Shown in pieces: positions 46,805-62,533 of a DNA stretch of 64,000 nucleotides (positions are counted from its first letter, which is position 1; every line of letters begins with the position of its first letter). A model generated the notes under the pieces. That model had not been told where the DNA came from. It worked only from the letters and a program-made list of their open reading frames with translations, and searched no databases. This stretch comes from Methylobacterium durans. GTDB taxonomy: Bacteria; Pseudomonadota; Alphaproteobacteria; Rhizobiales; Beijerinckiaceae. Made by a program: the position numbers and the translations under genes. Location of the stretch: NCBI RefSeq assembly GCF_003173715.1, contig NZ_CP029550.1, forward strand, positions 4,139,501-4,203,500, read 5' to 3'.

Positions 46805-48238
46805 TCAGGCGGCCTTGGCGCTCGACTGACGCTCCTTGAGGAAGTGCCAGAACTCGACGCCCTCGCGCAGTCGGCGCTTCATCATGTCCGGCGAGCGGAC
46901 CATCTCGCCGACGATCGAGGCGATCTTCGGGGCGCGGAAGTAGAACTTCTTGTAGAAATCCTCGACCGAGTTGAAAATCTCGGTGTGCGAGAGGTGCGGA
47001 TAGTGCAGCGGCGCCACCTGCACCCCGTTCTCGTCGACGAGCTCGGCGTTCTCCACATCGAGCCAGCCGTTCTCGACCGCCTGCTTGTAGAGGAAGGTGC
47101 CGGGGTAGGGCGCCGCGAGCGAGACCTGAATCGTGTGCGGGTTGATCCGGGTGGCGAACTTGATCGTCTCCTGGATCGTCTCCTTCGACTCGCCCGGCAG
47201 GCCGAGGATAAAGGTGCCGTGGATGGCGATGCCGAGTTCGTGGCAATCCTTGGTGAACTTCTCGGCCACCTCGACGCGCATGCCCTTCTTGATGTTGTGA
47301 AGGATCTGCTGGTTGCCCGACTCGTAGCCGACGAGGAGGAGGCGCAGGCCGTTGTCGCGCAGGACCTTCAGGGTCTCGCGCGGCACGTTCGCCTTCGCGT
47401 TGCACGACCACGTGACGCCGAGCTTGCCGAGTTCGCGGGCAATCTCTTCCGCGCGGGGCAGGTTGTCGGTGAAGGTATCGTCGTCGAAGAAGAACTCCTT
47501 CGTCTGCGGGAACGCCTTCAGGCAGTACTTGATCTCCTCGATCACGTGGCCGACCGAGCGGGTCCGGTAGGTGTGGCCGCCTACCGTCTGCGGCCACAGG
47601 CAGAACGTGCAGCGGCTCTTGCAGCCGCGGCCGGAATAGAACGAGATATAGGGGTGCTTCAGGTAGCCGATGAAGTAGTTCTCCATCACGAGATCGCGCT
47701 TGTAGACGCTCGTGACGAAAGGCAGCTGATCCATGTCTGTCATGATCGGACGGTCTTCGTTGTGCACGATGACGCCCGAGGCATTCCGATAGGACAGGCC
47801 CTTGATCTTGGACATGTCGATCCCGTCGGCGACGTCCTTGATCGTGAAGTCGAACTCGTTGCGAGCCACGAAATCGACCGCGGGCGCCTGGGCGAGACTG
47901 CCGGCGGCATCGACCGCGACCTTGGCGCCGATCAGGCCGGCCTTTAGGTTCGGGTTCTCGGCCTTCAGCGCCTCGATGGTCTTCACGTCCGACTTGAAGG
48001 ACGGCACCGAGGTGTGGAGCACGACGAGGTCGAAATCCTTGGCCTGGCCGCGGATCTCGTCGAGCTTGGTCTTGTGCGGCGGGGCGTCGATCAGCTTCGA
48101 GTTCTCGACGAGCGCCGCCGGCTGCGCGAGCCAGGTCGGATACCAGAACGACTTGATCTCGCGCTTGGCCTGATAGCGGGAGCCGGCGCCCCCGTCGAAG
48201 CCGTCGAAGGTCGGTGCCTGGAGGAAGAGCGTGCGCAT
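46805..48238 (-). CDS. hpnJ: Hopanoid biosynthesis radical SAM protein HpnJ
   Basis: Radical SAM enzyme of 477 residues (B12-binding-like N-terminal part, then the radical SAM core) that contracts the glucosamine ring of BHT glucosamine into the cyclitol ether. The cluster motif CKSRCTFC gives C206, C210 and C213. The start MRTLFLQAPTFDGFDGGAGSR matches HpnJ proteins exactly in style. The ATG at 48238 is chosen; a TTG at 48247 is possible. It is the last gene of the hpnL-hpnM-hpnI-hpnJ operon, 50 bp after hpnI and ending at a terminator. Confidence 0.95.
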   Translation of the reverse strand: MRTLFLQAPTFDGFDGGAGSRYQAKREIKSFWYPTWLAQPAALVENSKLIDAPPHKTKLDEIRGQAKDFDLVVLHTSVPSFKSDVKTIEALKAENPNLKAGLIGAKVAVDAAGSLAQAPAVDFVARNEFDFTIKDVADGIDMSKIKGLSYRNASGVIVHNEDRPIMTDMDQLPFVTSVYKRDLVMENYFIGYLKHPYISFYSGRGCKSRCTFCLWPQTVGGHTYRTRSVGHVIEEIKYCLKAFPQTKEFFFDDDTFTDNLPRAEEIARELGKLGVTWSCNAKANVPRETLKVLRDNGLRLLLVGYESGNQQILHNIKKGMRVEVAEKFTKDCHELGIAIHGTFILGLPGESKETIQETIKFATRINPHTIQVSLAAPYPGTFLYKQAVENGWLDVENAELVDENGVQVAPLHYPHLSHTEIFNSVEDFYKKFYFRAPKIASIVGEMVRSPDMMKRRLREGVEFWHFLKERQSSAKAA

Positions 48239-48288
48239 GGGGTTCAAGGCCTCAGTGCAATGCGAGACGAAGTCAGACGAAGCGAAGA

Positions 48289-49482
48289 TCAGACGGAGGT
48301 GGCTTCAGCATCGCGGCTGAGCGTCGCCTCCGGAATAAGCGTTCCGTCCGCAACGACGCGATAATCGTGACCTTTCCATGTCACCGCACCCGAGACGAAG
48401 CTCCACGAGAAGTTCGCGAAGGAGAGCATGTCGCGAATCGGCAACAGCCAGTAGGCGTGCGGCTCCAGCCCAAAAGCGCGCTCGAGCCGGACGCAGAGCA
48501 GGATGCGGCAGGCCAGCGCCAGGGCGGCCACGACGAGGGCGCTGTGGCCCGCCCCCGGCAGCAGCGCGCCGATCAGCGCCAGCGGGAAGGCGTGGGTGAC
48601 GACGGAACCGGCATAGCCGGCCGGATCGACGTTGCGGATCGTGCGGTTCCAGCGCAGCTCGTGCCGCCAGAGGCCGGACATCTCGGTGTCGACGCAGGTA
48701 TGCCCGATCGTGAAGTTTGGGATCGCCACCTCGCCCACATGGATGCGCAGGGCCTCGCCGATCGCGTAATCGTCGGCGAGATCGTCGCGAAACGCCTCGA
48801 AGCCACCGATCGCGGAGAGCGCGGTGCGGCGGAAGGCGATGGTCGAGCCGAAGCAGGGCTTGGCGAGCTTCAGCGCCGTGCCCATCACCACGTTCGGCAG
48901 GAATTGTACGTCTATGGCGAGGCCGGAGAGGTGGGCATGGATCCCGCGGTGGGCCGGCACGCCGTGATAGAGGCAAGTGACGCCGCCGATGCCGGGCGCG
49001 GAGAGCTCGGCGACCACCCGCTCCAGGTAGTCGGGCCGCACCACCATGTCGCTGTCGGCGAGCACGATCACGTCATTGGCGATCAGAGCCGACATGTTGA
49101 TCAGGTTCGAGACCTTGCGGTTCGAGCCGTGCTGGCGTGCATCGATCACGAGGTCGATGCGCGCGGACGGATGCGCCTCCTGCAGGCGGCGCACGACGCC
49201 GATCGCCGGGTCGGCCGCGTTCTGCACGCCGAAGACGATCTGGACCAGGCCCGCGTAATCCTGCCGGCAGAACGTCTCCAGGTTCTCGTAGAGGTTCGGC
49301 TCCATGCCGCAGAGGGGCTTGAGCATCGTGACCGAGGGTCGCGCCGCATCCGCGGCGAGGCGGGCCGGGATGCGAGCGGCGAAGCGGCCGGCGAGGAGGG
49401 CCGCGATGAGCCCGTAGCCGCAACCGGCGAGCGCGAGGACGAGAAGGATCGGCGAGAGCCAGGTCAGGTCCATGAGGGACAT
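48289..49482 (-). CDS. hpnI: Hopanoid glycosyltransferase HpnI
   Basis: Membrane GT2/ceramide-glucosyltransferase-like enzyme of 397 residues that attaches N-acetylglucosamine to bacteriohopanetetrol. The nucleotide-sugar motif DSD is in LADSDMVV, and GGFEAFRDDLADDY plus a downstream ELRW segment form the catalytic region. One N-terminal helix (about 7-28) and two or three C-terminal helices anchor it. The ATG at 49482 is used. It sits between hpnM and hpnJ on the minus strand. Confidence 0.94.
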   Translation of the reverse strand: MSLMDLTWLSPILLVLALAGCGYGLIAALLAGRFAARIPARLAADAARPSVTMLKPLCGMEPNLYENLETFCRQDYAGLVQIVFGVQNAADPAIGVVRRLQEAHPSARIDLVIDARQHGSNRKVSNLINMSALIANDVIVLADSDMVVRPDYLERVVAELSAPGIGGVTCLYHGVPAHRGIHAHLSGLAIDVQFLPNVVMGTALKLAKPCFGSTIAFRRTALSAIGGFEAFRDDLADDYAIGEALRIHVGEVAIPNFTIGHTCVDTEMSGLWRHELRWNRTIRNVDPAGYAGSVVTHAFPLALIGALLPGAGHSALVVAALALACRILLCVRLERAFGLEPHAYWLLPIRDMLSFANFSWSFVSGAVTWKGHDYRVVADGTLIPEATLSRDAEATSV

Positions 49483-49551: not shown

Positions 49552-50166
49552 TCAAGGCGCTGGTTTGGCGGCGAGCATCTTGTCCGTGCGCTCGCGCAGG
49601 AATTTGAGCAGCCCGTCCGCGCCACCGGCCTTCAGCGGCTCGGCGAAGCTCGTGCGCTGCGCGGCGACCTCGCTGACGTTGCCGTTCAGAAGGACGTCCT
49701 GGATGCGGTTGCCCGCATTCACCACGAAGTCGACGTCGGAATCCTCCCCGCCCGCATTCGCCACCCGCGTGCGGACGACGCGGGCGCCGCCGCGGGCCTC
49801 GCTCTTCGGGTTGACGTCGAACTTGCCGCCGATCGCCTCGGACAGGCGCGTGGCGTAGGTCGCGATGAAGTGTTGCGCGAAAGCCTCGGTCAGGGCCGTC
49901 TGCTGGTCGGCCGCAAGGCCCTTCCACTTCGGGCCCACGGCGACGCGGACCATGGCCGGAAAGTCAAAGCTCTCGCGCATCGGGCCGGAGATGGCATCCG
50001 CCCGGGCCTTCACGTCGCGGGACCCGTCCTTCAGCGCAGCCTCGTAGCTGGTGTACAGGGACTGCACCGTCTTGGCGGCCGGATCGTCCGCGGCCCGCGC
50101 GGTGGGCGCTGCCGCCAGGACGGCGACGCAGACGAGCGCGGCCAGGAATTCGCGGATCAGGCGCAC
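49552..50166 (-). CDS. hpnM: Hopanoid-associated MlaC/Ttg2-like periplasmic protein HpnM
   Basis: 204-residue periplasmic protein of the MlaC (toluene tolerance) type: Sec signal peptide (cleavage likely after ARA, near residue 26) and a lipid-binding body with FDFPAMVRVAVGPKWKGL and RIQDVLLNGNVS. It starts at the GTG at 50166, overlapping the last ten bases of hpnL, so it is translationally coupled. By analogy with MlaC it probably ferries hopanoids across the periplasm; the substrate is not proven. The longer frame upstream lies inside hpnL and is not used. Confidence 0.93.
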   Translation of the reverse strand: MRLIREFLAALVCVAVLAAAPTARAADDPAAKTVQSLYTSYEAALKDGSRDVKARADAISGPMRESFDFPAMVRVAVGPKWKGLAADQQTALTEAFAQHFIATYATRLSEAIGGKFDVNPKSEARGGARVVRTRVANAGGEDSDVDFVVNAGNRIQDVLLNGNVSEVAAQRTSFAEPLKAGGADGLLKFLRERTDKMLAAKPAP

Positions 50167-51272
50167 TTCTTCAGGTCTCCCCGCTCGGCCTCGCTCAACG
50201 AGGGGGCGTAGGCGTTGCGCGGCGGGGCGTAGCTGTAGAGCGGCCCCAAGGTCGCGGGCTGGAGCACCGCCCCGAGGCGGCGTCCGAGTTCGGCGGCGCG
50301 CTCCTCGCTCTCCTCGGCCTCGGTGCCACGCTCCATCAGGTGCCACGCGATGAGGCCCGGCACGCCGACGAGGAGGTCGGCGAGGCGCTTGACGAGCGAC
50401 AGGGCGAGCGCCGCCTCGGCCGGGATCCCGAAGATCGCGCAGAGGGCGATCAGGCCGCCCTCCTGCGCCCCGAGGGCACCGGGCACCGCGAAGGCGGCGC
50501 CGCGCACGGCCTGGGCGAGGCTCTCGATGATCACGGCCTCGGCGAAGCTCACCGGATAGCCCATGAAATGCAGGCAGACATAGACTTCGAGCGTGCCGAT
50601 GAGCCAGCCGACGAGGTGGATCGCGATGCCGGAGAGGATTCGGGTAGGCTGGCCGTAGAGCCGGCGCAGGTTGTCGTAGAGCACGTCGATGGCGCCGAGC
50701 GCGCGCCACTCGCGGCCCGAGGCGAACCGGCTGACAAGGGCCTGGATCAGGCGATGCCCGGAGCGGCGCTGGATCAGATAGAAGGCACCGACCGCCGGGG
50801 CGGCGATGGCGAGCCCACCCGCGACCGCACGGACCACCGGCCCGTCACCCGCCAACCAGACGAGGATGCCGAGGCCGGCCACCGTGAAGAGGAGCTGCGT
50901 CAGCGCCTGCGTCATCAGGTCGACGAACATGCTGGCGCCGGCGAGCCCCCCGGTGACGCCGCGGCGCGTGAGGAGGCGCGCCCCGACGAAGTCGCCGCCC
51001 ACGGTCGCCACGGGCAGAAGCGTGTTGATGCCCTCGCGCACGAAGCGGAGGTTCACGCAGGCCGGAAGAGCCGGACGCTCCATTTTCGGGAAGATCACGA
51101 ACCAGCCGAGGCCGGCCCACGCGACGGCGACGGCGCGCGCCGCCACGACGAACAGGGCACCCCAGCCCGCGCTCACCACCGCGGCCGCCACATCCTCAAG
51201 ACCCGAGGACAGGAACAGGCCGACGACCGTGCAGAGTCCGACGATGAGAGCCAGGGTCGTCAGGCGCTTCAT
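50157..51272 (-). CDS. hpnL: Hopanoid-associated membrane protein HpnL (LPG-flippase-like)
   Basis: 371-residue inner-membrane protein with about eight helices, in the lysylphosphatidylglycerol-synthase N-terminal domain (UPF0104) family. The segment RGAAFAVPGALGAQEGGLIALCAIFGIP matches. First gene of the minus-strand operon, divergent from the amidinotransferase; the ATG is at 51272. Its role may be flipping or transporting hopanoids, which fits the MlaC-like hpnM and RND-type hpnN, but is unproven. Confidence 0.92.
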   Translation of the reverse strand: MKRLTTLALIVGLCTVVGLFLSSGLEDVAAAVVSAGWGALFVVAARAVAVAWAGLGWFVIFPKMERPALPACVNLRFVREGINTLLPVATVGGDFVGARLLTRRGVTGGLAGASMFVDLMTQALTQLLFTVAGLGILVWLAGDGPVVRAVAGGLAIAAPAVGAFYLIQRRSGHRLIQALVSRFASGREWRALGAIDVLYDNLRRLYGQPTRILSGIAIHLVGWLIGTLEVYVCLHFMGYPVSFAEAVIIESLAQAVRGAAFAVPGALGAQEGGLIALCAIFGIPAEAALALSLVKRLADLLVGVPGLIAWHLMERGTEAEESEERAAELGRRLGAVLQPATLGPLYSYAPPRNAYAPSLSEAERGDLKKCA

Positions 51273-51482
51273 GATCCTCTTTCGGGTTCGTCGAAGGCTG
51301 AAATGCTGAATTCCCGCCGTGATTCCGACGGAAAAAAATCGCCGGGAGCGAGGAGCATCTCGGCAAGTTGCAGCTTTGGTCAGCGTTGTCTATCACCCGG
51401 GAGACACACCGCGGTCCAAAGCGGCACAGGGGCGAAATGCCTCCCGAAGAACTGCTGCGGGAACGCCGAAGGGGACTGACCG
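51273..51482. promoter_or_regulatory. Divergent promoter region hpnL / amidinotransferase
   Basis: 210-bp gap between the two divergent start codons. The middle (about 51300-51370) has an A-rich patch (GGAAAAAAATCG) likely to belong to the promoters. It indicates that the amidinotransferase and the cyclitol-ether operon may be controlled from one region. No operator was recognised. Confidence 0.5.
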
Positions 51483-52664
51483 ATGGATCGCGAATCACAC
51501 ATCACGGCCGGCGAGGCCGTGCTCGACGACGCTCACGCCGGTGCCTTCAACGGCCACAATCAGGGCAGCGCGGGCGTGCCGGCGCCTCAATCCCCGGTAA
51601 TGGCCTGGAACGAGTGGGATCCGCTGGAGGAGGTCATCGTCGGCTCGCTCGACGGCGCGACCATCCCGACCCACCATCTCACGGTGATTTTCAACCTGCC
51701 GCGGGCAGCGCAGCCCTTCTACCGGTTCGCGAGCGGCTGGCGCTATCCGAAGTTCATGAAGAAGCTCGCCCAGGCCGAGCTCGACAATTTCATCGGCATC
51801 CTGGCCGGCGAGGGCGTGAAGGTGCGCCGCCCCGACAGCGTCGACTTCTCGCGGAAGTTCAAGGCGCCGCGCTGGTCCTCGCGCGGCTTCTGCGTGGCCT
51901 GCCCGCGCGACCCCTACCTCGTGATCGGTGACGAGATCATCGAGAGCCCGATGTGCTGGCGCTCCCGCTACTTCGAGGGGGATGCCTACCGCTCCCTGTT
52001 CAAGGAGTATTTCCGCGCCGGCGCCCGCTGGACCTCGGCGCCGCGGCCCCAGCTCACCGACGATCTCTACAACTACGATTATCGGGTGCCGAACCTGAAG
52101 GCCGGCGAGCCGATGCAGTTCACCGTCAACGAGTTCGAGCCCGTCTTCGACGCGGCCGATTTCGTGCGCTGCGGGCGTGACCTTTTCGTCACGCGCTCCA
52201 ACGTCACGAACCTGATGGGCATCGAGTGGCTGCGCCGCCACCTCGGGCCGGGCTTTCGCATCCACGAGATCGAGAGCCGTTGCCCGCAGCCGATGCACAT
52301 CGACTCGTCGTTCATGCCGCTGGCGCCCGGCAAGGTGCTGGTCAATCCGGACTACGTCGATGTCGAGCGCCTGCCGGCGGTCCTCAAGAAGTGGGACGTC
52401 CTGATCGCGCCGCGCCCCGACCCCGTCGCGGGCTTCATGAGCAAGATCTCGATGTGCTCGCCCTGGACCTCGATCAACGTGCTGATGCTCGACGAGAAGA
52501 AGATCGTCGTCGACGCGAGCCAGCCGACCTTGATCAAGGCCCTGAAGGATTGGGGCTTCGATCCGATCCCGGCGCCGTTCCTGTCCTACGGCCCGTTCGG
52601 CGGCTCCTTCCACTGCGCGACGCTCGACGTGCGCCGCCGCGGCACGCTGAAATCCTACTTCTGA
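51483..52664 (+). CDS. Glycine amidinotransferase (AGAT)-family enzyme, hopanoid-cluster associated
   Basis: 393-residue enzyme of the guanidino-transferring AGAT/StrB group, which moves the amidino group of arginine to an amine. The whole active site is present: Cys378 in GGSFHCATLDVRRRG, His272 in PQPMHIDSSF, and an acidic residue in EFEPVFDAADF (about 217-227), all as in animal AGAT. StrB relatives act on aminocyclitols. It sits between hpnL and hpnK, within the genes that make the amino-cyclitol ether hopanoid, and 88 bp before hpnK on the same strand. The inferred job is to guanidinylate BHT cyclitol ether, a head group reported from methylobacteria. No creatine-pathway gene is nearby. 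Family: very likely; substrate: inference. Confidence 0.9.
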   Translation: MDRESHITAGEAVLDDAHAGAFNGHNQGSAGVPAPQSPVMAWNEWDPLEEVIVGSLDGATIPTHHLTVIFNLPRAAQPFYRFASGWRYPKFMKKLAQAELDNFIGILAGEGVKVRRPDSVDFSRKFKAPRWSSRGFCVACPRDPYLVIGDEIIESPMCWRSRYFEGDAYRSLFKEYFRAGARWTSAPRPQLTDDLYNYDYRVPNLKAGEPMQFTVNEFEPVFDAADFVRCGRDLFVTRSNVTNLMGIEWLRRHLGPGFRIHEIESRCPQPMHIDSSFMPLAPGKVLVNPDYVDVERLPAVLKKWDVLIAPRPDPVAGFMSKISMCSPWTSINVLMLDEKKIVVDASQPTLIKALKDWGFDPIPAPFLSYGPFGGSFHCATLDVRRRGTLKSYF

Positions 52665-52752
52665 GACGGGGGCGGTCGAGACCGCCCGCGACACGCACGT
52701 CGTTCCAGGTTCCGGGGCCTCGCCTTCGCGGCGGCCCCGGCGAGGAGATCCC

Positions 52753-53595
52753 GTGAAGCGGTTGGTGGTCACGGCTGACGATTTCGGCCTGAGCCTTCAG
52801 GTCAACGAAGCGGTGGAGCAGGCGCACCGCGAAGGAATCCTCACCGCCGCGAGCCTGATGGTCTCGGCGCCCGCGGCCGCCGACGCGATCGAGCGGGCTC
52901 GGCGCCTGCCGTCGCTCCGGGTCGGGCTACACCTCGTCCTCGTCGAGGCGTGGCCGACCCTACCGGCCGTCGAGCTTCCCGATCTCACCGACGCGGCCGG
53001 GCTGATGCGCCGGGACATGGAGCGGCTCGGGCTCGACCTCGCCCTGAGACCCGCCGCGCGACGGCAGCTCTCCGCCGAGATCGGGGCCCAGTTCGAGGCC
53101 TTCCGCGCCACCGGGCTGCCGCTCGATCACGTCAACGCCCACAAGCACTTCCACGTGCATCCGCTGATCGCGGGCGCCGTGCTGAGGATCGGGCGCGCCT
53201 TCGGCATGCGGGCGCTCCGCGTCCCCCGCGAGCCCCGTGAGATCCTGCGGCGGGCGGAACCCGGCTCGAATCCACGACCGGCCCTCGACATCGCGCCCTG
53301 GGCCGCGCTCCTCGCCGTACGCGCCCGCGCCGCCGGCCTCCTGATCCCGGACCGGACGCTTGGCTTGGCCTGGTCCGGCGCCATGAATCCGGCCCGCGTG
53401 GCGGCCCTGCTGTCGCAGCTGCCGGAGGGGCTGACGGAGCTATACACCCATCCGGCCACGGCGGGTGGCTTTCCCGGCGAGGCGCCGGGCTACGCCTACG
53501 CGGCGGAGCGGGACGCACTCACGGCGCCAGAGGCGCGGCAGGCGGTGGAACGGGCCGGAGCGATCCGCGGCGGGTTCTCGGATTTCGCGCGCTGA
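52753..53595 (+). CDS. hpnK: Hopanoid-associated deacetylase HpnK (YdjC-like)
   Basis: 280-residue YdjC/polysaccharide-deacetylase-like enzyme removing the acetyl group from BHT N-acetylglucosamine to give BHT glucosamine, the substrate of HpnJ. The metal site is visible: paired Asp (D9, D10) in TADDFG and the His cluster in NAHKHFHVHP. The GTG at 52753 follows GAGGAGAT, an excellent ribosome-binding site. The free amine it exposes is the group an amidinotransferase would modify. It ends convergent with hpnN, about 150 bp away. Confidence 0.93.
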   Translation: MKRLVVTADDFGLSLQVNEAVEQAHREGILTAASLMVSAPAAADAIERARRLPSLRVGLHLVLVEAWPTLPAVELPDLTDAAGLMRRDMERLGLDLALRPAARRQLSAEIGAQFEAFRATGLPLDHVNAHKHFHVHPLIAGAVLRIGRAFGMRALRVPREPREILRRAEPGSNPRPALDIAPWAALLAVRARAAGLLIPDRTLGLAWSGAMNPARVAALLSQLPEGLTELYTHPATAGGFPGEAPGYAYAAERDALTAPEARQAVERAGAIRGGFSDFAR

Positions 53596-53747: not shown

Positions 53748-56399
53748 CTACTTCGCCAGCGCCGCCTCGGAACGCTTCGGCATCATCGCGTCGTCGTCGA
53801 TGGTCTTCGCTTCGGGCCGCTTCGGGTCGGGCTTCTTGGGCGGAGGGCCCAGGAAGGCCGGCACCACGAAGAAGGCCGCGAGCAGGGTGAAGAACAGCGA
53901 CAGCGCGAGCAGCTTACCCATGCTCGCCGTGCCGGGATGGCTCGACAGGACGAGCGAGCCGAAGGCCGTGCCGGTGGTGAGCGCCGAGAAGAAGATCGCC
54001 CGGGTGAGGCTTGAGGCCAGCATGTCGGTCACGCCCGCTCGCCACGCGATCACGTAATAGATGTGGAACGCGACGCCGACCGCGAGCATCAGCGGCAGGG
54101 CGATGATGTTGGCGAAGTTGAGCGGCATGCCGACCACGTGGAGCGCCATCAGCGTCCAGAGAGTGGCGAGCACCAGCGGCCCGAGCGTCATCGCGACGTC
54201 CCAGGGTTTGCGCAGAGCCACCGAGAGGATGATGAAGATCAGCGCCAGCGCGGTTAGGCCCGCCTGAACGAAGGCCCCGAGGATCGTGTAGCTCGACGCG
54301 GTCGTCGCCACCGGCGCTCCGGTCGCGTGCGGCGCCACGGTCTGCACCTCCTTGGCGAAGTTGCGCAGGACCTGATCGTCGTTCGAGTTGCCCTTCGGAT
54401 GGACCTCGATGCGGGCGCGCCCATCGGCGGCGACCCACTCGGCCTTCACCTGCGGGGGCAGGTTCTCAAGCGTGATCTTCTCCGGGTGGAGCAGGTCGCG
54501 CAGTCGCTTCAGCAGGGTCTTCAAGTCGGTGGTCAACGCGACCGAGGCCGCCTCGCGGATCGTGACCGGGGCGTTGGCGAGCTTGTCGAGCGTATTGGCG
54601 AGCGCGTCCGCGCTCTTGGCGCCGGGCTCGCTGCCGCCGCCGACCCCGCGCAGGGCGACAGCCGCATCCTTGATCGCCTTCACGTTCTCGGCGTCCGTTG
54701 GCGGCGGCGGCTTGCGGCCGGGATTCAAGACGGGATCGAGAAGCTGCGCCGTCTCCTGGATCGTGGCGAGCTTCTGGTCCTGGTCGCGCGGCACGTAGGT
54801 GTCGATGCTGTTCATCTCGGCGACGGAGGACAGGGCGCGCAGCTTCTTCATCGTCTCCGGAATGTCGGCGACGGAGGGAACGAGCACGTCGATGATGTTG
54901 GGGCTCGTCGCCGGGTCCTTGATCAGGTCGAGATAGGTCGCGATCGACTCGACCTTGGGGCTCCTCAGGTGCATCGGGTTCGAATCGAAGGGCAGCTTCC
55001 AGAGGAGCGGCATCCCCGCGAGGGTGATGAGACCGACGCCGGTCAGGACCCATTTGCGGTTGCGGATGATCCACGGATCGACGCCGGACAGCCAGGTCGT
55101 CTCGACGGCCTCCTTCTCGCCCCGCGGCTTGAACACGGCAATCAGCGCCGGCAGCAGGGTGAGCGAGAACAGGTAGGCCACGATCATGCCGACGCCGGCG
55201 ATCAGGCCGAGTTCGGACACGCCGCGGAAGGCGGTCGGCAGGAAAGCGAAGAAGCCGGCGAGCAGCGAGACGGCGGCGAGCGTCAGCGACCAGCCAACGC
55301 CCCGCGAAGCCGCCCGGATCGCGGCCTCCAGCGTCGGCTGCTCGTAGCGGTCGGCCCGGTATCGCACGGCGAACTGGATGCCGAAATCGATGCCGAGGCC
55401 GACGAACAGAGCCGCGAAGGCGACCGAGATCGGGTTCAGCTCGCCGACCATGAGGAGGCCGAGCGCCGCCGTGACGATGAGACCCGCGAAAGTCGTGATG
55501 ATCACGGCGGTGACGAGCGGCGCGGAGCGCAGAGCCAGCCACAGGAACAGGACGATGGCGCCGACCGTGACGCTGTTGTTGAGGAAGGCGTCGTCCGACA
55601 GCGTAGCGAACTCGTCGTCGGCCACGGCGACCGGTCCGGTCAGCCGCATGCGCAGGCCGTTCGCCTCGTCGATCCTCAGATCCTTGGCGGTGCCGCGGAT
55701 CAGCTTCGTCGCCTCCGCGCCCGGCTGGAGGGCGTTGAAGTCGAGGACCGGCTGGATGATCACGAACTTACGCAGGTCCGTGACGCGGGTCTCGCCGCCG
55801 GAGAGCAGCATCTGCCAGGACATGCGCGCGGGCTTGCCGGCGAGCACCGTCTCCAGCGTGCTGTTGATCTGCGCCATCGGCTTGTCGAGCTCTTCGAGCT
55901 TGGCGTCGCCGCTCTTCACGCCACGGGCGCCCAGGCTCAGGACACGCATGATCCCGCGCAGCGACGGGTCAGCCGCGAGGGGGCCGAGCAGGCCCTGCTG
56001 CTGGACGAGCTGCTCCGTCGTCTTCTCGAGCTCCGCCTGCGACATCAGCAGGAAGCCGTTCTTGTCGAAGAACGGGCCGCCGTCCGGGCGGTACACGGTC
56101 TCGATCAACTTCTTTTGATTGCTCAGCGCCTTGGTCAGCTCGGCGGCGGCCTCCTCGGCCTCCTCCGGCGTCTTCCCGTCGATGACGGCCACCACCGTGT
56201 TGGTGCGCTGAGGGAAGGCCTTCTCGTAGTTGATCTCGTCCTGGCGCCAGGATTCCTTCGGATCGATCAGCCGCTCGACATCGGTGTTGATCCGGAACAG
56301 ATGCGCGGCGGTGCCGGCGCCGACGACGGTCATCAGCGCGACGACCGCGATGACGATCCAGCGACGATGAACGGAAAACGCGACGAGTCGTTCGATCAC
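53748..56399 (-). CDS. hpnN: Hopanoid RND-type transporter HpnN
   Basis: 883-residue inner-membrane RND/MMPL-family transporter that moves hopanoids toward the outer membrane. It has twelve helices in two sets: one N-terminal helix, then five near 270-420, one near 455 and five near 715-855. Two large periplasmic loops of about 230-250 residues each separate them. The start IERLVAFSVHRRWIVI fits HpnN; GTG at 56399. Members form trimers or dimers without an added membrane-fusion partner. It faces hpnK tail-to-tail, and its start faces hpnH across 616 bp. Confidence 0.93.
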   Translation of the reverse strand: MIERLVAFSVHRRWIVIAVVALMTVVGAGTAAHLFRINTDVERLIDPKESWRQDEINYEKAFPQRTNTVVAVIDGKTPEEAEEAAAELTKALSNQKKLIETVYRPDGGPFFDKNGFLLMSQAELEKTTEQLVQQQGLLGPLAADPSLRGIMRVLSLGARGVKSGDAKLEELDKPMAQINSTLETVLAGKPARMSWQMLLSGGETRVTDLRKFVIIQPVLDFNALQPGAEATKLIRGTAKDLRIDEANGLRMRLTGPVAVADDEFATLSDDAFLNNSVTVGAIVLFLWLALRSAPLVTAVIITTFAGLIVTAALGLLMVGELNPISVAFAALFVGLGIDFGIQFAVRYRADRYEQPTLEAAIRAASRGVGWSLTLAAVSLLAGFFAFLPTAFRGVSELGLIAGVGMIVAYLFSLTLLPALIAVFKPRGEKEAVETTWLSGVDPWIIRNRKWVLTGVGLITLAGMPLLWKLPFDSNPMHLRSPKVESIATYLDLIKDPATSPNIIDVLVPSVADIPETMKKLRALSSVAEMNSIDTYVPRDQDQKLATIQETAQLLDPVLNPGRKPPPPTDAENVKAIKDAAVALRGVGGGSEPGAKSADALANTLDKLANAPVTIREAASVALTTDLKTLLKRLRDLLHPEKITLENLPPQVKAEWVAADGRARIEVHPKGNSNDDQVLRNFAKEVQTVAPHATGAPVATTASSYTILGAFVQAGLTALALIFIILSVALRKPWDVAMTLGPLVLATLWTLMALHVVGMPLNFANIIALPLMLAVGVAFHIYYVIAWRAGVTDMLASSLTRAIFFSALTTGTAFGSLVLSSHPGTASMGKLLALSLFFTLLAAFFVVPAFLGPPPKKPDPKRPEAKTIDDDAMMPKRSEAALAK

Positions 56400-57015: not shown

Positions 57016-58179
57016 TTGGGCATTCCCCTCCGGTACGTCGCGAAGATCGGCGGCTACATCCTCAAGCAGCATCTGACGGGCCGCAAGCGCTACCCGCTCG
57101 TGATGATGATGGAGCCCCTGTTCCGCTGCAACCTCGCCTGCGCGGGTTGCGGGAAGATCGACTACCCGGACGAGATCCTCAACAAGCGCCTGCCGGTGGC
57201 CGACGCGCTGGAATCCGTGCGCGAGTGCGGCGCACCCGTGGTCGTGATCGCGGGTGGCGAGCCGCTTCTCCACAAGGATCTGCCGCAGATCGTTCAGGGC
57301 ATCATCGCCCAGAAGAAATTCGCCATCGTCTGCACGAACGCACTGCTCCTCGAAAAGAAGATCAAGGAGTACAAGCCGAGCCCCTACTTCACGTGGTCGA
57401 TCCACCTCGATGGCGACCAGGAGATGCACGACAAATCGGTTTGCCAGCGCGGCGTCTACGACAAGGCCGTCGCGGCCATCAAGACGGCCAAGGAGATGGG
57501 CTTCCGGGTCACCATCAACTGCACATTCTTCAACAATTCCTCGCCTGACAAGATCGCGGACTTCTTCGATTCCGTCACCCGCATGGGCATCGACGGCATC
57601 ACGGTCTCGCCGGGCTACGCCTACGAGCGCGCGCCCGACCAGCAGCACTTCCTGAACCGGAAGGCGACGAAGGACCTGTTCCGGGGCGTGTTCCGCCACG
57701 GCAAGGAGAAGGGCCGCGAGAAGTGGACCTTCCAGCAATCGGGCCTGTTCCTCGACTTCCTGGCCGGCAACCAGACCTACCATTGCACGCCCTGGGGCAA
57801 TCCGACCCGGACCGTGTTCGGCTGGCAGAAGCCCTGCTACCTGCTGGGCGAGGGTTACACCGCGACCTTCAAGGAATTGATGGAGGAGACGGACTGGGAT
57901 TCGTACGGCACCGGCAATTACGAGAAGTGCGCCGATTGCATGGTCCATTCGGGCTATGAGGCGTCCTCGGTGGTCGATTCCGTGCGCAAGCCCTGGAAAC
58001 CCGTGCTGCACGCGATCCGCGGCATCCGGACCGAGGGCGAGATGGCGCCCGAGGTCAGCCTGGAGAAGCAGCGCCCGGCGGAGTTCGTGTTCTCGCGCAA
58101 CGTCGCTCAGAAGCTGTCCGAGATCAAAGCCTCGGGTGCAGACACCAAGCAGGAAGCTCGCAAGCGCACGGCCGCCTGA
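57016..58179 (+). CDS. hpnH: Adenosylhopane synthase HpnH (radical SAM)
   Basis: 387-residue radical SAM enzyme joining the 5'-deoxyadenosyl radical to diploptene, giving adenosylhopane and extending hopene to C35. The cluster motif is CNLACAGC (C38, C42, C45). The GGEPLLH and TWSIHLDGD segments are family typical. It starts at a TTG with AAAGGAG seven bases upstream, a good site. Unlike in the common hpnC-D-E-F-G-H order, it is transcribed opposite to hpnG and shc, and is followed by a strong terminator. Confidence 0.95.
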   Translation: MGIPLRYVAKIGGYILKQHLTGRKRYPLVMMMEPLFRCNLACAGCGKIDYPDEILNKRLPVADALESVRECGAPVVVIAGGEPLLHKDLPQIVQGIIAQKKFAIVCTNALLLEKKIKEYKPSPYFTWSIHLDGDQEMHDKSVCQRGVYDKAVAAIKTAKEMGFRVTINCTFFNNSSPDKIADFFDSVTRMGIDGITVSPGYAYERAPDQQHFLNRKATKDLFRGVFRHGKEKGREKWTFQQSGLFLDFLAGNQTYHCTPWGNPTRTVFGWQKPCYLLGEGYTATFKELMEETDWDSYGTGNYEKCADCMVHSGYEASSVVDSVRKPWKPVLHAIRGIRTEGEMAPEVSLEKQRPAEFVFSRNVAQKLSEIKASGADTKQEARKRTAA

Positions 58180-58280: not shown

Positions 58281-58994
58281 CTAGGCGACCTCGCGCAGGG
58301 GCTCCTCCGCCAACGGGATACCGAGCCCGGGGCCGAGCAGGGCGCGGCAGCGGGCGAGCGACCCGAAGGCGGCCTTCGAATCCCGGGCGAGGCGGACGAG
58401 GCCGCCGACCTTGGCCGAACCGCGGGCGAGGGCGGCGAGGACCGCCAGGATATCGGGCTCGCCGTTCGGTTTCAGAGCCTGGGCGGCGAAGGCGGGCAGC
58501 GCCCGGTGGGCCGGATCGCAGACCACGCGGATCGCAGCGAAGGGCACGCCGTGCCGCTCGGCAAAGGCGGCAGCGACGTGCGATTCCATGTCGACGGCAG
58601 CCGCGCCTGTGCGGGACCAGAGATCGGCCTTTCCCTCTAGGCTCAGCACCGCCGCGTCGACGCCGGCGAGATCGCCGGGGAGGACTTTCAGCCCGGGCCG
58701 GGCGAGGCGGGCGAGCAGGGCGGCGGCAATGGATGCGTCGGCCTCGTAGCGGCGGTTGCCGGCCTGCACGGCGGAGGCAATCACCACGTCACCCGGCAGC
58801 AGATCCGGATCGAGGCCGCCCGCGATCCCGATGCTGACGACGGCCCGGCAGCCCGGCTGCACGCGCTCGGCCAGCATCGCCTGCAGGCGGTGGGGATTTC
58901 CACCCGCGCCGATCGCGGCGACACCGGGACCGGCGGCGAGGCGGCCCTCCTTGGCGAGACCGGTCACGGCGAGCACCGGCAAGGACAGGGCCAT
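58281..58994 (-). CDS. hpnG: Hopanoid nucleosidase/phosphorylase HpnG
   Basis: 237-residue nucleoside-phosphorylase-fold enzyme that removes adenine from adenosylhopane to give a ribosyl-hopane intermediate. The start VLAVTGLAKEGRLAAG is typical of HpnG; ETHR-like loops such as GIAGGLDPDLLPGDVVIAS and VDMESHVAAAFAERHG hold the nucleoside-binding Glu. The ATG at 58994 is chosen because homology begins there; a start at 59051 would add 19 residues. It lies downstream of shc on the minus strand. Confidence 0.92.
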   Translation of the reverse strand: MALSLPVLAVTGLAKEGRLAAGPGVAAIGAGGNPHRLQAMLAERVQPGCRAVVSIGIAGGLDPDLLPGDVVIASAVQAGNRRYEADASIAAALLARLARPGLKVLPGDLAGVDAAVLSLEGKADLWSRTGAAAVDMESHVAAAFAERHGVPFAAIRVVCDPAHRALPAFAAQALKPNGEPDILAVLAALARGSAKVGGLVRLARDSKAAFGSLARCRALLGPGLGIPLAEEPLREVA

Positions 58995-59207
58995 CGGGCC
59001 TGTGCGAACCGCAACGACGCGGCCGCTCGGGGCTGGCTCGGGCAGAATCATGGAAACCCGGCTGTTCGAGGCTGAACCACCCGGTCGACGGACCGGGCGT
59101 GAAGCTCTAGCAGCCTTCATACCAATCCCAATGCGGCCGGCCTGTGGCCAGCCGGCAACAAAGCGCGCCGAAGGCGGTCGGGAGTGCCCCGGATGCTCGC
59201 CGCCCGG

Positions 59208-61208
59208 TCACATCCCGAAGGCGACCTCACGGCTGTTGCTCCGCTTGAGGTTGCGGTAGCGCGCCATGGCCCAGAGGGGGAAGAACTTCGAGTAGCCGTG
59301 GTAGCGCAGGTAGAAGACGCGGGGGAACCCGGTCGCGGTATAGCGCTCCTCGGTCCAGAAACCGTCCGCACCTTGCGTGCGGGCAAGGTAGTTGATGCCC
59401 CGCGTCACCGCTGGCTCGTCGTTGGCGCCCGCGGCCATCAGGGCCAGTAGGGCCCAGGCCGTCTGCGAAGCGGTGCTGTAGCCGGGCTCGAAAGCCGGAT
59501 CGATCTTGTAGCTCGACGCGTCCTCGCCCCAGCCGCCGTCCGGGTTCTGGATGCTGATGAGCCACGTCACGGCCCGGCGCACCTCCGGGGAATTCGGGTC
59601 GATGCCGGCGGCGTTGAGGGCGCACAGCACCGACCACGTACCGTAGATGAAGTTCATGCCCCAGCGGCCGTACCAGCTGCCGTCCTTCTCCTGCTCCTTG
59701 AACAGGTAGGCGACGCCCCGGTCGAGAGCCTGCGAGGTCTCGCGGGTCTCGCCGAGTTGCGCCAGCATCGAGACGACGCGGGCCGTCACGTCTGCGGTCG
59801 GCGGGTCGAGAAGCGCCCCATGATCCGAGAACGGGATGTGGTTGAGGTACATGTGGTTGTTGTCTGCATCGAACGCGGCCCAACCGCCATCTTTCGACTG
59901 CAGGCCTTCGACCCATTCGCGCGCCCGGGCGATCGACGCGCTGTAATCGGGCATGTCGGCCACCAGCCCGTGCTGGCGCATGGCGCGGTTCATCGCCATG
60001 ACCACGACTGCCGTATCGTCGAGGTCGGGGTAGTGGGCGTTCGCGTACTGGAACGCCCAGCCGCCCGGCCGAACGTTCGGTTTCGCCGCCGCCCAATCGC
60101 CGACGATGTCGAGGACCTGCCGGGGCTTCAGCCAGTCGAGGCCGTCGCGCGCCTGCCGCTCGGCGTCGGAGCCACCGGCTTCGAGCAGCGCGTGGCTGGC
60201 GAGCGCCGTGTCCCATACGGGCGAGACGCAGGGCTGGACGTAGGCCTCGTGGTCCTTCTCGACGACGAGCTTCTCGATGGCGTCGCAGGCGATGCGGACC
60301 TGCGGGTGATCGGCCGGGTAGCCCATCACCTCGTACATCAGCACCGAGTTGACCATGGCGGGGAAGATCGCGCCGAGCCCGTCCTCACCGTTCAGGCGCT
60401 CGCTGACCCAGGCGACCGCCTTCTCCTCGGCGCGCAGGCGCGGCGTCTTCGGGAAGTAGTTCTCGACCTTCTGCAGCACCCGGTCGATGCCGCCGAAGAT
60501 CGGCGTCCAGGGCCAAGTGGCGTGCGGTGAGCCGGGCCAGGTGCGGACGTGCTCGGGCGGGGTGACGAACAGCTCCTGAACGCCGATCCCGCGCGGGTTC
60601 CGGGCCCGCGGCTTCTCAGCCTGCAGGACGAACATGGGCACCATCACGCAGCGCGCCCAGTAGGAGACCTTGTCGAGGTGGAAGGGGAACCACGTCGGGA
60701 GGAACATGACCTCGACGGGCATCACCGGCACCGCGGCCCACGGTACCTCGCCATAGAGGGCAAGCAGGAACCGCGTGAAGACGTTGGCGTTCGCGGCGCC
60801 GCCACGGGACAGGATCGCCTCGCGCGCCCGACGCATGTGGGGCGCCTCGATGTCGTCGCCGATCATCTTGAGGGCGAAATACGCCTTCACGCTGGCGCTG
60901 ATGTCGAAGGGACCGTCGTGGACGAGGGCCCAGCCGCCATGCTTGCCCTGCGTCCGGCGCAGGTAATTTCCGATCTTGGCCTCAAGGCCGGCGCGCGGCG
61001 TGGTCGCGCGGAACTGATGGAACAGGATGTACTCAGAGGGGATGGTCGCGTCGGCCTCGAGTTCGAAGCAGATATGCCCGTCCGCGTGCGCGAGGCGCGT
61101 GAGCGCCCGCGTCGCGTTGACCACCCCGCGCTCGACGTCGTCCAGGGAGATGTCCTGGGTCTTCGGGCGCTGCAGCGCCTCGACCTTGCTCACAGCCTCT
61201 CGCATCAT
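59208..61208 (-). CDS. shc: Squalene-hopene cyclase
   Basis: Membrane-associated class II triterpene cyclase converting squalene to hopene and hopanol, 666 residues. The protonating motif DLDDTA spans D395-A400 (D397 being the key acid). QW-type repeats are visible (KHGGWALV, KDGGWAAFD, KDGSWYGRWG, PDGGWGED, ADGFWTEE), as is the PWTPIFGGIDR segment. The start is one of two adjacent ATGs at 61208/61205 after GCGAGG. It lies 38 bp downstream of hpnE in the same operon. Confidence 0.97.
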   Translation of the reverse strand: MMREAVSKVEALQRPKTQDISLDDVERGVVNATRALTRLAHADGHICFELEADATIPSEYILFHQFRATTPRAGLEAKIGNYLRRTQGKHGGWALVHDGPFDISASVKAYFALKMIGDDIEAPHMRRAREAILSRGGAANANVFTRFLLALYGEVPWAAVPVMPVEVMFLPTWFPFHLDKVSYWARCVMVPMFVLQAEKPRARNPRGIGVQELFVTPPEHVRTWPGSPHATWPWTPIFGGIDRVLQKVENYFPKTPRLRAEEKAVAWVSERLNGEDGLGAIFPAMVNSVLMYEVMGYPADHPQVRIACDAIEKLVVEKDHEAYVQPCVSPVWDTALASHALLEAGGSDAERQARDGLDWLKPRQVLDIVGDWAAAKPNVRPGGWAFQYANAHYPDLDDTAVVVMAMNRAMRQHGLVADMPDYSASIARAREWVEGLQSKDGGWAAFDADNNHMYLNHIPFSDHGALLDPPTADVTARVVSMLAQLGETRETSQALDRGVAYLFKEQEKDGSWYGRWGMNFIYGTWSVLCALNAAGIDPNSPEVRRAVTWLISIQNPDGGWGEDASSYKIDPAFEPGYSTASQTAWALLALMAAGANDEPAVTRGINYLARTQGADGFWTEERYTATGFPRVFYLRYHGYSKFFPLWAMARYRNLKRSNSREVAFGM

Positions 61209-61246
61209 CCTCGCCTCAGCGGCTCCTCGAAAGGATGCCCTATGAC

Positions 61247-62533
61247 TCAAGCTGCGCCGCGCCCCAGTGCCGGATCGCACATCAGGGCAAGCGCAGCGGT
61301 CTTGCCGGAGCGAATCGCTCCCTCGATCGTCGATGGCAGGCCGGTCGCGGTCCAATCGCCCGCCAGGACGAGATTCGTCTGCGCGGTCACGGCCTTCGCG
61401 CGCCGGGCGGCCTCGGCCGGCGTCGCCGCGAAAGTCGCGCGCTTCTCCTTGACGATCTGCCAGCTTGGCAGTTCCGGAGCAAGGCAGTCGAGCTTTGCGA
61501 TTTCGCCCCAGATCTGTCGGGCGAGATCCTCGCGCGGCACGTCGAGAAGCCTGTCGGCGCCGCTTATCGTCACCGAATAGCGGTCCGGATAGGCGAACAG
61601 CCACTCGGTGAGCCCGTTCACCACGCCGAGAACGAGCGGGCGTCCGGGCTTCGGAACCACAGCGAAATGCGCGTTGACGATGGACCGGAAGCTCTGCGGC
61701 GCGGCGAGGCCCGGCAGCAACTCGGCCGCGACCCAGGGCGGCAGGGCCAGCACGACCGAATCGTCGGCGGCCAGTTCCACCGGCTCGTCGGTGAAATCGA
61801 GCCGGTCGATCCGCCCGGCACCGAAGCCGAGGCCGCGCAGGCGCCGGCCGAACCGGATCTCGGCCCCCTTGCCTTCCAGGTAGGCGACGGCCGGATCGAC
61901 GAAAGCCGCCGAGAGGCCGGCGACCGCGACGAGGGGGCGGCAGGCGGAGCCGCCCGCGCCCAGCGTCTCACGCAGGATCGTGGCGGCGAGCCCGACATCG
62001 CTCTCGCGGGGGTCGGTGTTGAGGGCCGCGAGCAGGACGGGGTTCCAGAGCCGCTCGTAGAGCAGGCCCTCGCAGGCCATGCTCTGCCCGATCGTGCCGC
62101 CGGCGCCGTCCGCCTTGCCGGAGGCGGCCTTGAGGATGCCCAAGGGAGCAAGGTAGTCGCGGGCGCGGCTGCCCGGCACGCGGCGGGCGCGGCTCAGGAT
62201 CCACCAGGGCAGGCGCCCGGCATTCGGGCGCAATTGCCAGCGCTCACCGGTCTTCAGGTCCGCGAAGTCGAACGCGGCCTCGTCCGGGCCGGTGAGCGCG
62301 TCGGCGGGCGCGCCGACCGTGCGCATGAAGCCGAGCGCGTCGGCATTGCCCGACAGGAGGAGGTGGTTGCCGTTGTCGATCGTGAGGCCGAGGCTCGGAT
62401 CGTAGTAGGAGCGGCAGCGCCCGCCCGCCTGCTTGGCGGCCTCGTGCAGGACCACGCGACGCCCGCGCTCGGCGAGCGAGACGGCCGCGGAGAGGCCGGC
62501 CAAGCCGGCCCCGACGACGTGGACGGTGCCCAT
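61247..62533 (-). CDS. hpnE: Hydroxysqualene dehydroxylase HpnE (FAD-dependent)
   Basis: 428-residue FAD-binding amine-oxidase-like enzyme reducing hydroxysqualene to squalene. The dinucleotide-binding motif GAGLAGLSAAVSLAERG starts at about residue 8; the C-terminal FAD segment LAGDWTATGLPSTIEGAIRSG is characteristic. Its ATG shares one base with the hpnD stop (TGATG), showing translational coupling. With HpnC and HpnD it forms the bacterial three-enzyme route to squalene. Confidence 0.95.
   Translation of the reverse strand: MGTVHVVGAGLAGLSAAVSLAERGRRVVLHEAAKQAGGRCRSYYDPSLGLTIDNGNHLLLSGNADALGFMRTVGAPADALTGPDEAAFDFADLKTGERWQLRPNAGRLPWWILSRARRVPGSRARDYLAPLGILKAASGKADGAGGTIGQSMACEGLLYERLWNPVLLAALNTDPRESDVGLAATILRETLGAGGSACRPLVAVAGLSAAFVDPAVAYLEGKGAEIRFGRRLRGLGFGAGRIDRLDFTDEPVELAADDSVVLALPPWVAAELLPGLAAPQSFRSIVNAHFAVVPKPGRPLVLGVVNGLTEWLFAYPDRYSVTISGADRLLDVPREDLARQIWGEIAKLDCLAPELPSWQIVKEKRATFAATPAEAARRAKAVTAQTNLVLAGDWTATGLPSTIEGAIRSGKTAALALMCDPALGRGAA

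Follow-up and report, generated by a model that had tools for sequence, protein, structure and literature searches.

An amidinotransferase gene linked to hpnL in methylobacteria, a candidate for the synthesis of guanidine-substituted hopanoids

Which gene provides the guanidine group found on hopanoids of methylobacteria? The guanidine-substituted cyclitol ether of bacteriohopanetetrol (BHT) was first described in methylotrophs (a 1985 reference cited in the accessible text of PMC5642901), and the accessible part of PMC5358736 reports that Methylobacterium extorquens makes BHT cyclitol ether, both plain and guanidine-substituted, so that a premise of the original prediction, that such compounds occur in methylobacteria, is borne out in print. 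According to the available portion of PMC5642901, the producers of the guanidine-substituted cyclitol ether include methylotrophs, Zymomonas mobilis and Geobacter sulfurreducens, and also Dolichospermum, Aphanizomenon and a Gloeocapsa enrichment, and the compound is proposed there as a sediment tracer of its producers. In the literature that we searched, which lay mostly outside the subscription journals, no gene is named for the guanidine hopanoid, in agreement with the earlier statement that none was known to have been demonstrated, and no link is made between hopanoids and an amidinotransferase.

Here we analyze a stretch of 64,000 nucleotides from Methylobacterium durans (hereafter, the window) that contains a gene for a 393-amino-acid amidinotransferase, which we name AmdT, within a hopanoid cluster (Table 1). 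Along the forward strand, the genes are arranged in the order hpnJ, hpnI, hpnM-like, hpnL, amdT, hpnK, hpnN, hpnH, hpnG and shc, with amdT, hpnK and hpnH encoded on that strand and the remaining genes on the opposite one. The proteins encoded beside amdT that score over the NCBIfam cut-offs are HpnL, HpnI, HpnJ, HpnK, HpnH, HpnG and squalene-hopene cyclase; with HpnI, HpnJ and HpnK among these, the claim that amdT sits among the head-group genes is upheld. HpnN passes the cut-off of one model (Table 1) and, at 1094.9 bits, falls slightly under the cut-off of 1100 of a second one, NF052374. Another HpnL over the cut-off (247.7 bits; G000:C1:4122216-4123190) is encoded approximately 16 kb before the start of the window.

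Table 1. Features of the hopanoid cluster, in window positions
Feature	Positions	Strand	Evidence
hpnJ, radical SAM cyclitol-ether enzyme	46805..48247	-	TIGR03471, 810.6 bits
hpnI, glycosyltransferase	48289..49482	-	TIGR03472, 449.5 bits
hpnM-like, putative start	49552..50157	-	TIGR03481, 119.8 bits, under the cut-off of 160.1
hpnL, flippase-like membrane protein, constant neighbor of amdT	50157..51272	-	TIGR03476, 346.8 bits
hpnL-amdT intergenic region, divergent, 210 bp	51273..51482		zero sigma-70-type matches
amdT, amidinotransferase, candidate hopanoid guanidinylase	51483..52664 (ATG to stop)	+	PDB sequence homology and catalytic residues
hpnK, deacetylase, 88 bp downstream of amdT on the same strand	52753..53595	+	TIGR03473, 357.1 bits
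hpnN, RND-type hopanoid transporter	53748..56399	-	TIGR03480, 997.1 bits, over the cut-off
hpnH, adenosyl-hopene transferase	57016..58179	+	TIGR03470, 535.3 bits
hpnG, hopanoid-associated phosphorylase	58281..59120	-	TIGR03468, 216.5 bits
shc, squalene-hopene cyclase; ORF extends past the match at the N-terminus	59208..61604	-	TIGR01507, 759.7 bits

We consider it probable that AmdT, as an AGAT-family amidinotransferase dependent on arginine, caps the amine of the hopanoid head group, yielding guanidine-substituted BHT cyclitol ether. This is the function that the original prediction had proposed for the gene, and the proposal gains comparative support from the linkage of amdT to hpnL, the co-occurrence with HpnJ and the different partner gene of the sister clade.

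The translated reading frame of amdT contains zero internal stops. A sequence search of the PDB revealed near-full-length homology (residues 30-393 at most) between AmdT and four amidinotransferases of solved structure, namely, SxtG (6u1r; 2e-133, 448 bits, residues 35-393), human AGAT (1jdx; 4e-106, 358 bits), HsvA (5wpi; 1e-95, 324 bits) and StrB1 (1bwd; 7e-73, 249 bits). No Pfam family matched AmdT at 1e-3, and the only NCBIfam match, to dimethylargininase, was below threshold (25.5 bits; cut-off 340). Where the sources give names to the homologs, these are mostly 'amidinotransferase' or 'glycine amidinotransferase'. In the alignment with AGAT, the residues C407, H303, D254, D305 and D170 of that enzyme correspond to C378, H272, D223, D274 and D143 of AmdT, so that alignment and PDB homology agree with the earlier description of an intact AGAT-type enzyme with Cys378 and His272. 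Across 43 rows (20 from HpnJ-encoding genomes and 23 unlabeled homologs), C378, H272 and D223 are invariant, D143 is kept in 42 and D274 in 41. R322, Y164 and S354 of AGAT align to Tyr291, Cys137 and Cys325 of AmdT, and the site of R322 is occupied by Tyr in 18 and by Phe in two of the 20 rows from HpnJ-encoding genomes. In AGAT, R322 presumably binds the carboxylate of the substrate; a creatine-type glycine amidinotransferase was considered for AmdT and is less likely because this arginine is replaced by Tyr291. Scanning of positions 51150 to 52850 yielded zero sigma-70-type promoter matches and three terminator-like matches, compared with 0.9 expected.

The surroundings of amdT were compared across 80 loci, the best of 112 that were confirmed; 79 of the 80 come from Methylobacterium or Methylorubrum and one from a Methylobacteriaceae MAG (L034). 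In each of these best 80 of 112 loci, hpnL is divergent to amdT at a distance of 206-315 bp (median 212, between aligned ends), hpnI and hpnJ are present on all 80, and hpnK is present on 79, with the MAG as the exception. The position of amdT between hpnL and hpnK, pointed out in the original prediction, holds in the window, but hpnK is not a constant neighbor: apart from the window, it lies directly 3' of amdT in one of these best 80 of 112 loci, L032 of M. oxalidis. It is thus hpnL, rather than hpnK, that constantly adjoins amdT. Identity of the encoded proteins to those of the window, again in the best 80 of 112 loci, is 87-97% for AmdT (median 92), with medians of 91 for HpnJ, 83 for HpnK, 76 for HpnI and 72 for HpnL. 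The median dN/dS values from 20 pairs, the window being compared with every fourth locus, are 0.13 for AmdT, 0.15 for HpnJ and 0.36 for HpnL. Because amdT is present in a single copy in the source genome (at 1e-3), is free of stops in all of the best 80 of 112 loci and has this low median dN/dS, it is a real gene, not a chance reading frame. Carriers identified by species include M. soli (L035), M. oxalidis (L032) and M. rhodesianum (L055); the names M. organophilum and M. extorquens do not appear among the best 80 of 112 loci.

In an evenly drawn sample of 199 genomes of the family, 33 encode a match to AmdT at 1e-20, of which 17, from three genera and with 73-100% identity, form a close clade. 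A second group (57-63%) comprises 15 genomes, among them G172 with a fragmentary match, and one genome stands at 41%. HpnJ scores over the cut-off in 43 of the 199 genomes overall, in all 17 genomes of the close clade (although the match in G160 holds a stop codon), and in none of the 15 genomes of the second group, among which G102 has a broken match under the cut-off (540 bits). Co-occurrence with hpnJ across genomes, which had been suggested as a check on the original prediction, was accordingly found in 17 of 17 close-clade genomes of the family and in both carriers from other families (see below). Much of this co-occurrence is shared descent, and most of the HpnJ-encoding family genomes (26 of 43) come without AmdT, which weighs against the guanidinylase reading. 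Within genus g41, amdT adjoins hpnL in five of the six carriers and is separated from it by approximately 3.8 kb in the remaining one (G041), and in G075 of genus g39, amdT lies between hpnN and hpnK, not beside hpnL; both cases weigh against the guanidinylase reading. A seventh HpnJ-encoding genome of g41 (G127) gave no amdT match; its contig stops just past hpnL, and therefore, the lack of a match does not show that amdT is absent.

We built a tree of 74 rows, 51 derived from loci and 23 of 120 listed homologs included as unlabeled rows. The 20 rows from 19 HpnJ-encoding genomes are separated from 31 rows labeled as lacking HpnJ by a branch with 95/91 support. The tree requires a single label change, compared with a mean of 15.9 after shuffling, and none of 500 shuffles was as low, in a test of the kind that near-copies inflate and on a tree in which several outer rows have long branches. 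The HpnJ-lacking label was given to one Bradyrhizobium and one Streptomyces plasmid row without a genome search, and to G102 and G248 despite matches below the cut-off (540 bits, broken, and 363 bits, respectively); G172, a fragmentary hit, was omitted. The HpnJ-positive branch also holds proteins named as Paraburkholderia, Burkholderia, Acetobacteraceae, Paramagnetospirillum, Microvirga and Enterovirga.

Carriers outside the family are few. In a sample of 337 genomes of the class, nine match AmdT at 1e-60, two of them from the genus, and beyond the genus, only G632 (73%) and G744 (66 and 64%, in two copies) exceed 40% identity. These two genomes represent two other families, and both encode HpnJ over the cut-off. 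The amdT gene of G632 lies 89 bp from HpnL (264.5 bits; cut-off 195.65), and one of the G744 copies lies 44 bp from HpnL (232.1 bits; cut-off 195.65), in each case on the same strand. In both genomes, the amdT-hpnL pair is located on a contig other than that of hpnJ, and the hpnJ contig holds a further hpnL-like gene, over the cut-off in G632 and under it in G744. This pairing of amdT with hpnL apart from the hpnJ cluster is the strongest single argument for the guanidinylase reading. The other G744 copy is not beside HpnL, which counts against that reading. Directly 3' of this copy, there is a gene for a CDP-alcohol phosphatidyltransferase (L157:2004-2642), which hints at a lipid substrate. 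HpnK was not found within 20 kb around hpnJ of G632, a further point against the guanidinylase reading. No additional carrier was detected at 1e-100 in the orders of G632 (seven genomes including G632) and G744 (two genomes including G744). Family f17, considered as a route to Zymomonas, was set aside because the best plasmid matches to one 4-kb stretch came from Streptomyces (for the amidinotransferase itself), Ruegeria and Sinorhizobium.

In a sample of the phylum, 15 of 398 genomes match AmdT at 1e-60, six of these belonging to the genus and one to the sister clade; the other eight come from other families and do not exceed 52% identity. In a gammaproteobacterial sample, four of 369 genomes match at 1e-80, and only G1017 exceeds 60%, with a 65% relative of AmdT that a quick tree places near the base of the clade. 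Zero hpn genes lie within 20 kb of this relative, which counts against the guanidinylase reading; in G1017, HpnN passes one of its two model cut-offs, and neither HpnJ nor Shc was detected in the approximately 1.6 of 4.0 Mb that were read. A gene for an SfLAP-family membrane protein is located directly 5' of the AmdT relative (L185:8449-9414). G1017 aside, the AmdT clade is confined to HpnJ-encoding genomes among those settled, 19 of 19 from three families.

The sister clade has a different genomic partner. Of the 16 sister loci, 14 come from the family; the other two are L167, on a Bradyrhizobium plasmid, and L186 (57%), from a gammaproteobacterium, which the quick tree does not place in the sister clade. 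A SugE-like SMR gene is present within 600 bp in 13 of the 16 loci (13 of the 14 from the family; L147-L152, L172, L173 and L175-L179), at a gap of 12-136 bp from the amidinotransferase gene, the two genes having opposite strands in 12 of these 13 cases. It is missing from L174, L167 and L186, the last of which shows an SMR-like match alongside, below the cut-off. Compared with NCBIfam, one of two sister-clade SMR proteins passed the SugE cut-off. In 90 loci that represent the hopanoid clade and G1017, no SMR gene was found within 600 bp, and 80 of these loci show 600 bp on both sides; L033 contains a weak SMR match 2.4 kb away. This set includes L185 of G1017 but neither L139 nor the short loci L001-L030. 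SugE/Gdx proteins are guanidinium exporters according to the accessible parts of the sources, and therefore, in distinction to the hpnL-linked clade, a small guanidine compound for export is the probable product of the sister clade. Among the 15 second-group genomes of the family, squalene-hopene cyclase is over the cut-off in 14 and HpnI in one, G089; this genome, the only one of the sister clade with HpnI over the cut-off, also carries the only family sister locus without a SugE-like neighbor (L174). The Bradyrhizobium locus, on plasmid p195_1 of Bradyrhizobium sp. 195, encodes a 60% relative on a conjugative plasmid amid IS5 and IS66 transposase genes.

The addition of GlcNAc by HpnI, deacetylation by HpnK and ring contraction by HpnJ, taken as established in the original prediction, are in print in the accessible text of PMC12583986. 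In the scheme that we infer, HpnI attaches GlcNAc to bacteriohopanetetrol, HpnK deacetylates the GlcNAc-bearing BHT, and HpnJ contracts the sugar, giving the amino-cyclitol ether. Cys378 of AmdT, assisted by His272 and Asp223/Asp274, would accept the amidino group of L-arginine, with ornithine leaving, and AmdT would then hand this group to the head-group amine, to form guanidine-substituted BHT cyclitol ether. HpnL probably helps the charged lipid to cross the inner membrane, ahead of HpnN-dependent transport. More tentatively, AmdT and HpnL might form a movable two-gene module that guanidinylates and flips an amino-sugar membrane lipid and defines a lipid-acting branch of amidinotransferases, the small guanidine compound of the sister branch leaving via a Gdx-type transporter.

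The main uncertainty of this reading is the acceptor, cyclitol ether versus glucosamine. BHT glucosamine is a serious alternative because, in the available portion of PMC5642901, guanidine-substituted BHT glucosamine is published for the cyanobacterium Dolichospermum BIR53 (non-axenic), along with Nostoc CCY9926 as unpublished data. AmdT would then act one step earlier, and the guanidine product would either be the end product or be subsequently contracted by HpnJ. In the accessible text of PMC12583986, methylated BHT glucosamine is reported from M. oxalidis, whose gene (L032) is 97% identical to amdT of the window, and BHT glucosamines are confined to species without BHT cyclitol ether; therefore, the closest named relative may lack the cyclitol ether in culture. 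Nevertheless, we consider glucosamine an unlikely acceptor, given that the guanidine form published for Methylobacterium, in the accessible part of PMC5358736, is the cyclitol ether, and that every settled genome of the clade encodes HpnJ, which is needless for the glucosamine form. The argument from HpnJ is a weak point because HpnI and HpnJ usually occur together, according to the text available from PMC12583986.

It is quite improbable that AmdT modifies a soluble amine, such as a polyamine, an amino acid or a small cyclitol, its gene being trapped in the hopanoid cluster. The characterized relatives, AGAT, SxtG, HsvA and StrB1, all use other, non-hopanoid amines as acceptors, and the exporter gene adjoining the sister clade would fit a small guanidine product. 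However, that exporter gene was not found within 600 bp in the 90 loci of the hopanoid clade and G1017 (80 of them in full view), the linkage to hpnL survives rearrangement and, in two other families, distance from the hpnJ contig, and HpnJ is encoded in all 19 settled genomes; a soluble-amine role is better suited to the sister clade, with its SMR neighbor. Guanidinylation of another amino lipid, for example, 35-aminobacteriohopanetriol or an HpnL-transported aminoglycolipid, would be in keeping with the lipid-type partners seen elsewhere (HpnL paralogs, the CDP-alcohol phosphatidyltransferase of G744 and the SfLAP-family protein of G1017), and with the 35-aminotriol isomer that, in the accessible text of PMC12583986, accounts for 81% in Enterovirga rhinocerotis, an Enterovirga sp. 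protein being part of the AmdT clade. We rate this option as very remote: a guanidine-substituted aminotriol was not met in the searched literature, as far as its text is accessible, and the aminotriol, made by HpnO according to the same part of PMC12583986, needs no HpnJ, yet the clade comes with HpnJ.

A real tension with the guanidinylase reading comes from the 2025 study PMC12583986, in which, judging by its accessible text, M. soli, M. oxalidis, M. rhodesianum and M. aquaticum were grown and 63 hopanoids reported: the string 'guanid' is absent from the main text, although four methylobacterial strains were studied and loci of the first three species carry amdT. The guanidine form may not have been sought there. 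The same text states that there are no obvious candidate genes near the hpn clusters except hpnA, B, L and M. The producers outside methylobacteria (Zymomonas, Geobacter and cyanobacteria, as recorded in the available sources) also count against the guanidinylase reading. For Zymomonas, the accessible text of PMC3495753 gives hpnI, hpnJ and hpnK as adjacent by locus number and does not contain 'amidino'.

If the proposed function is correct, amdT would be the first candidate gene for the unusual, positively charged guanidine hopanoid of methylobacteria, and producers of guanidine hopanoids would become predictable from genomes. A single gene would also allow one to ask what a fixed positive charge on hopanoids does for membranes, and HpnL would gain a testable role.

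Among the known amidinotransferases, SxtG, which belongs to a different pathway and has a non-hopanoid amine as its acceptor, is the best solved-structure match to AmdT, with the catalytic cysteine and histidine at the same alignment places. AGAT (1jdx/1jdw) shows whole-length homology and has the five residues of the catalytic set in common with AmdT, but differs at R322, Y164 and S354, and the genomic setting of AmdT is lipid synthesis. StrB1, an inosamine-phosphate amidinotransferase, has an aminocyclitol as its acceptor. The comparison with StrB made in the original prediction stands as far as homology is concerned, yet StrB1 is the lowest-scoring of the four solved enzymes, SxtG and AGAT being the nearest, and a StrB-like origin as the closest kin of AmdT is rejected. 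The sister clade (family loci L147-L152 and L172-L179) is 57-63% identical to AmdT and has the same catalytic residues, with an SMR gene in place of HpnL; Ser326 of AmdT is replaced by Gly in all 15 sister rows (14 family genomes and one Bradyrhizobium plasmid), and Gln269 by Asn in 12 and Thr in three of them.
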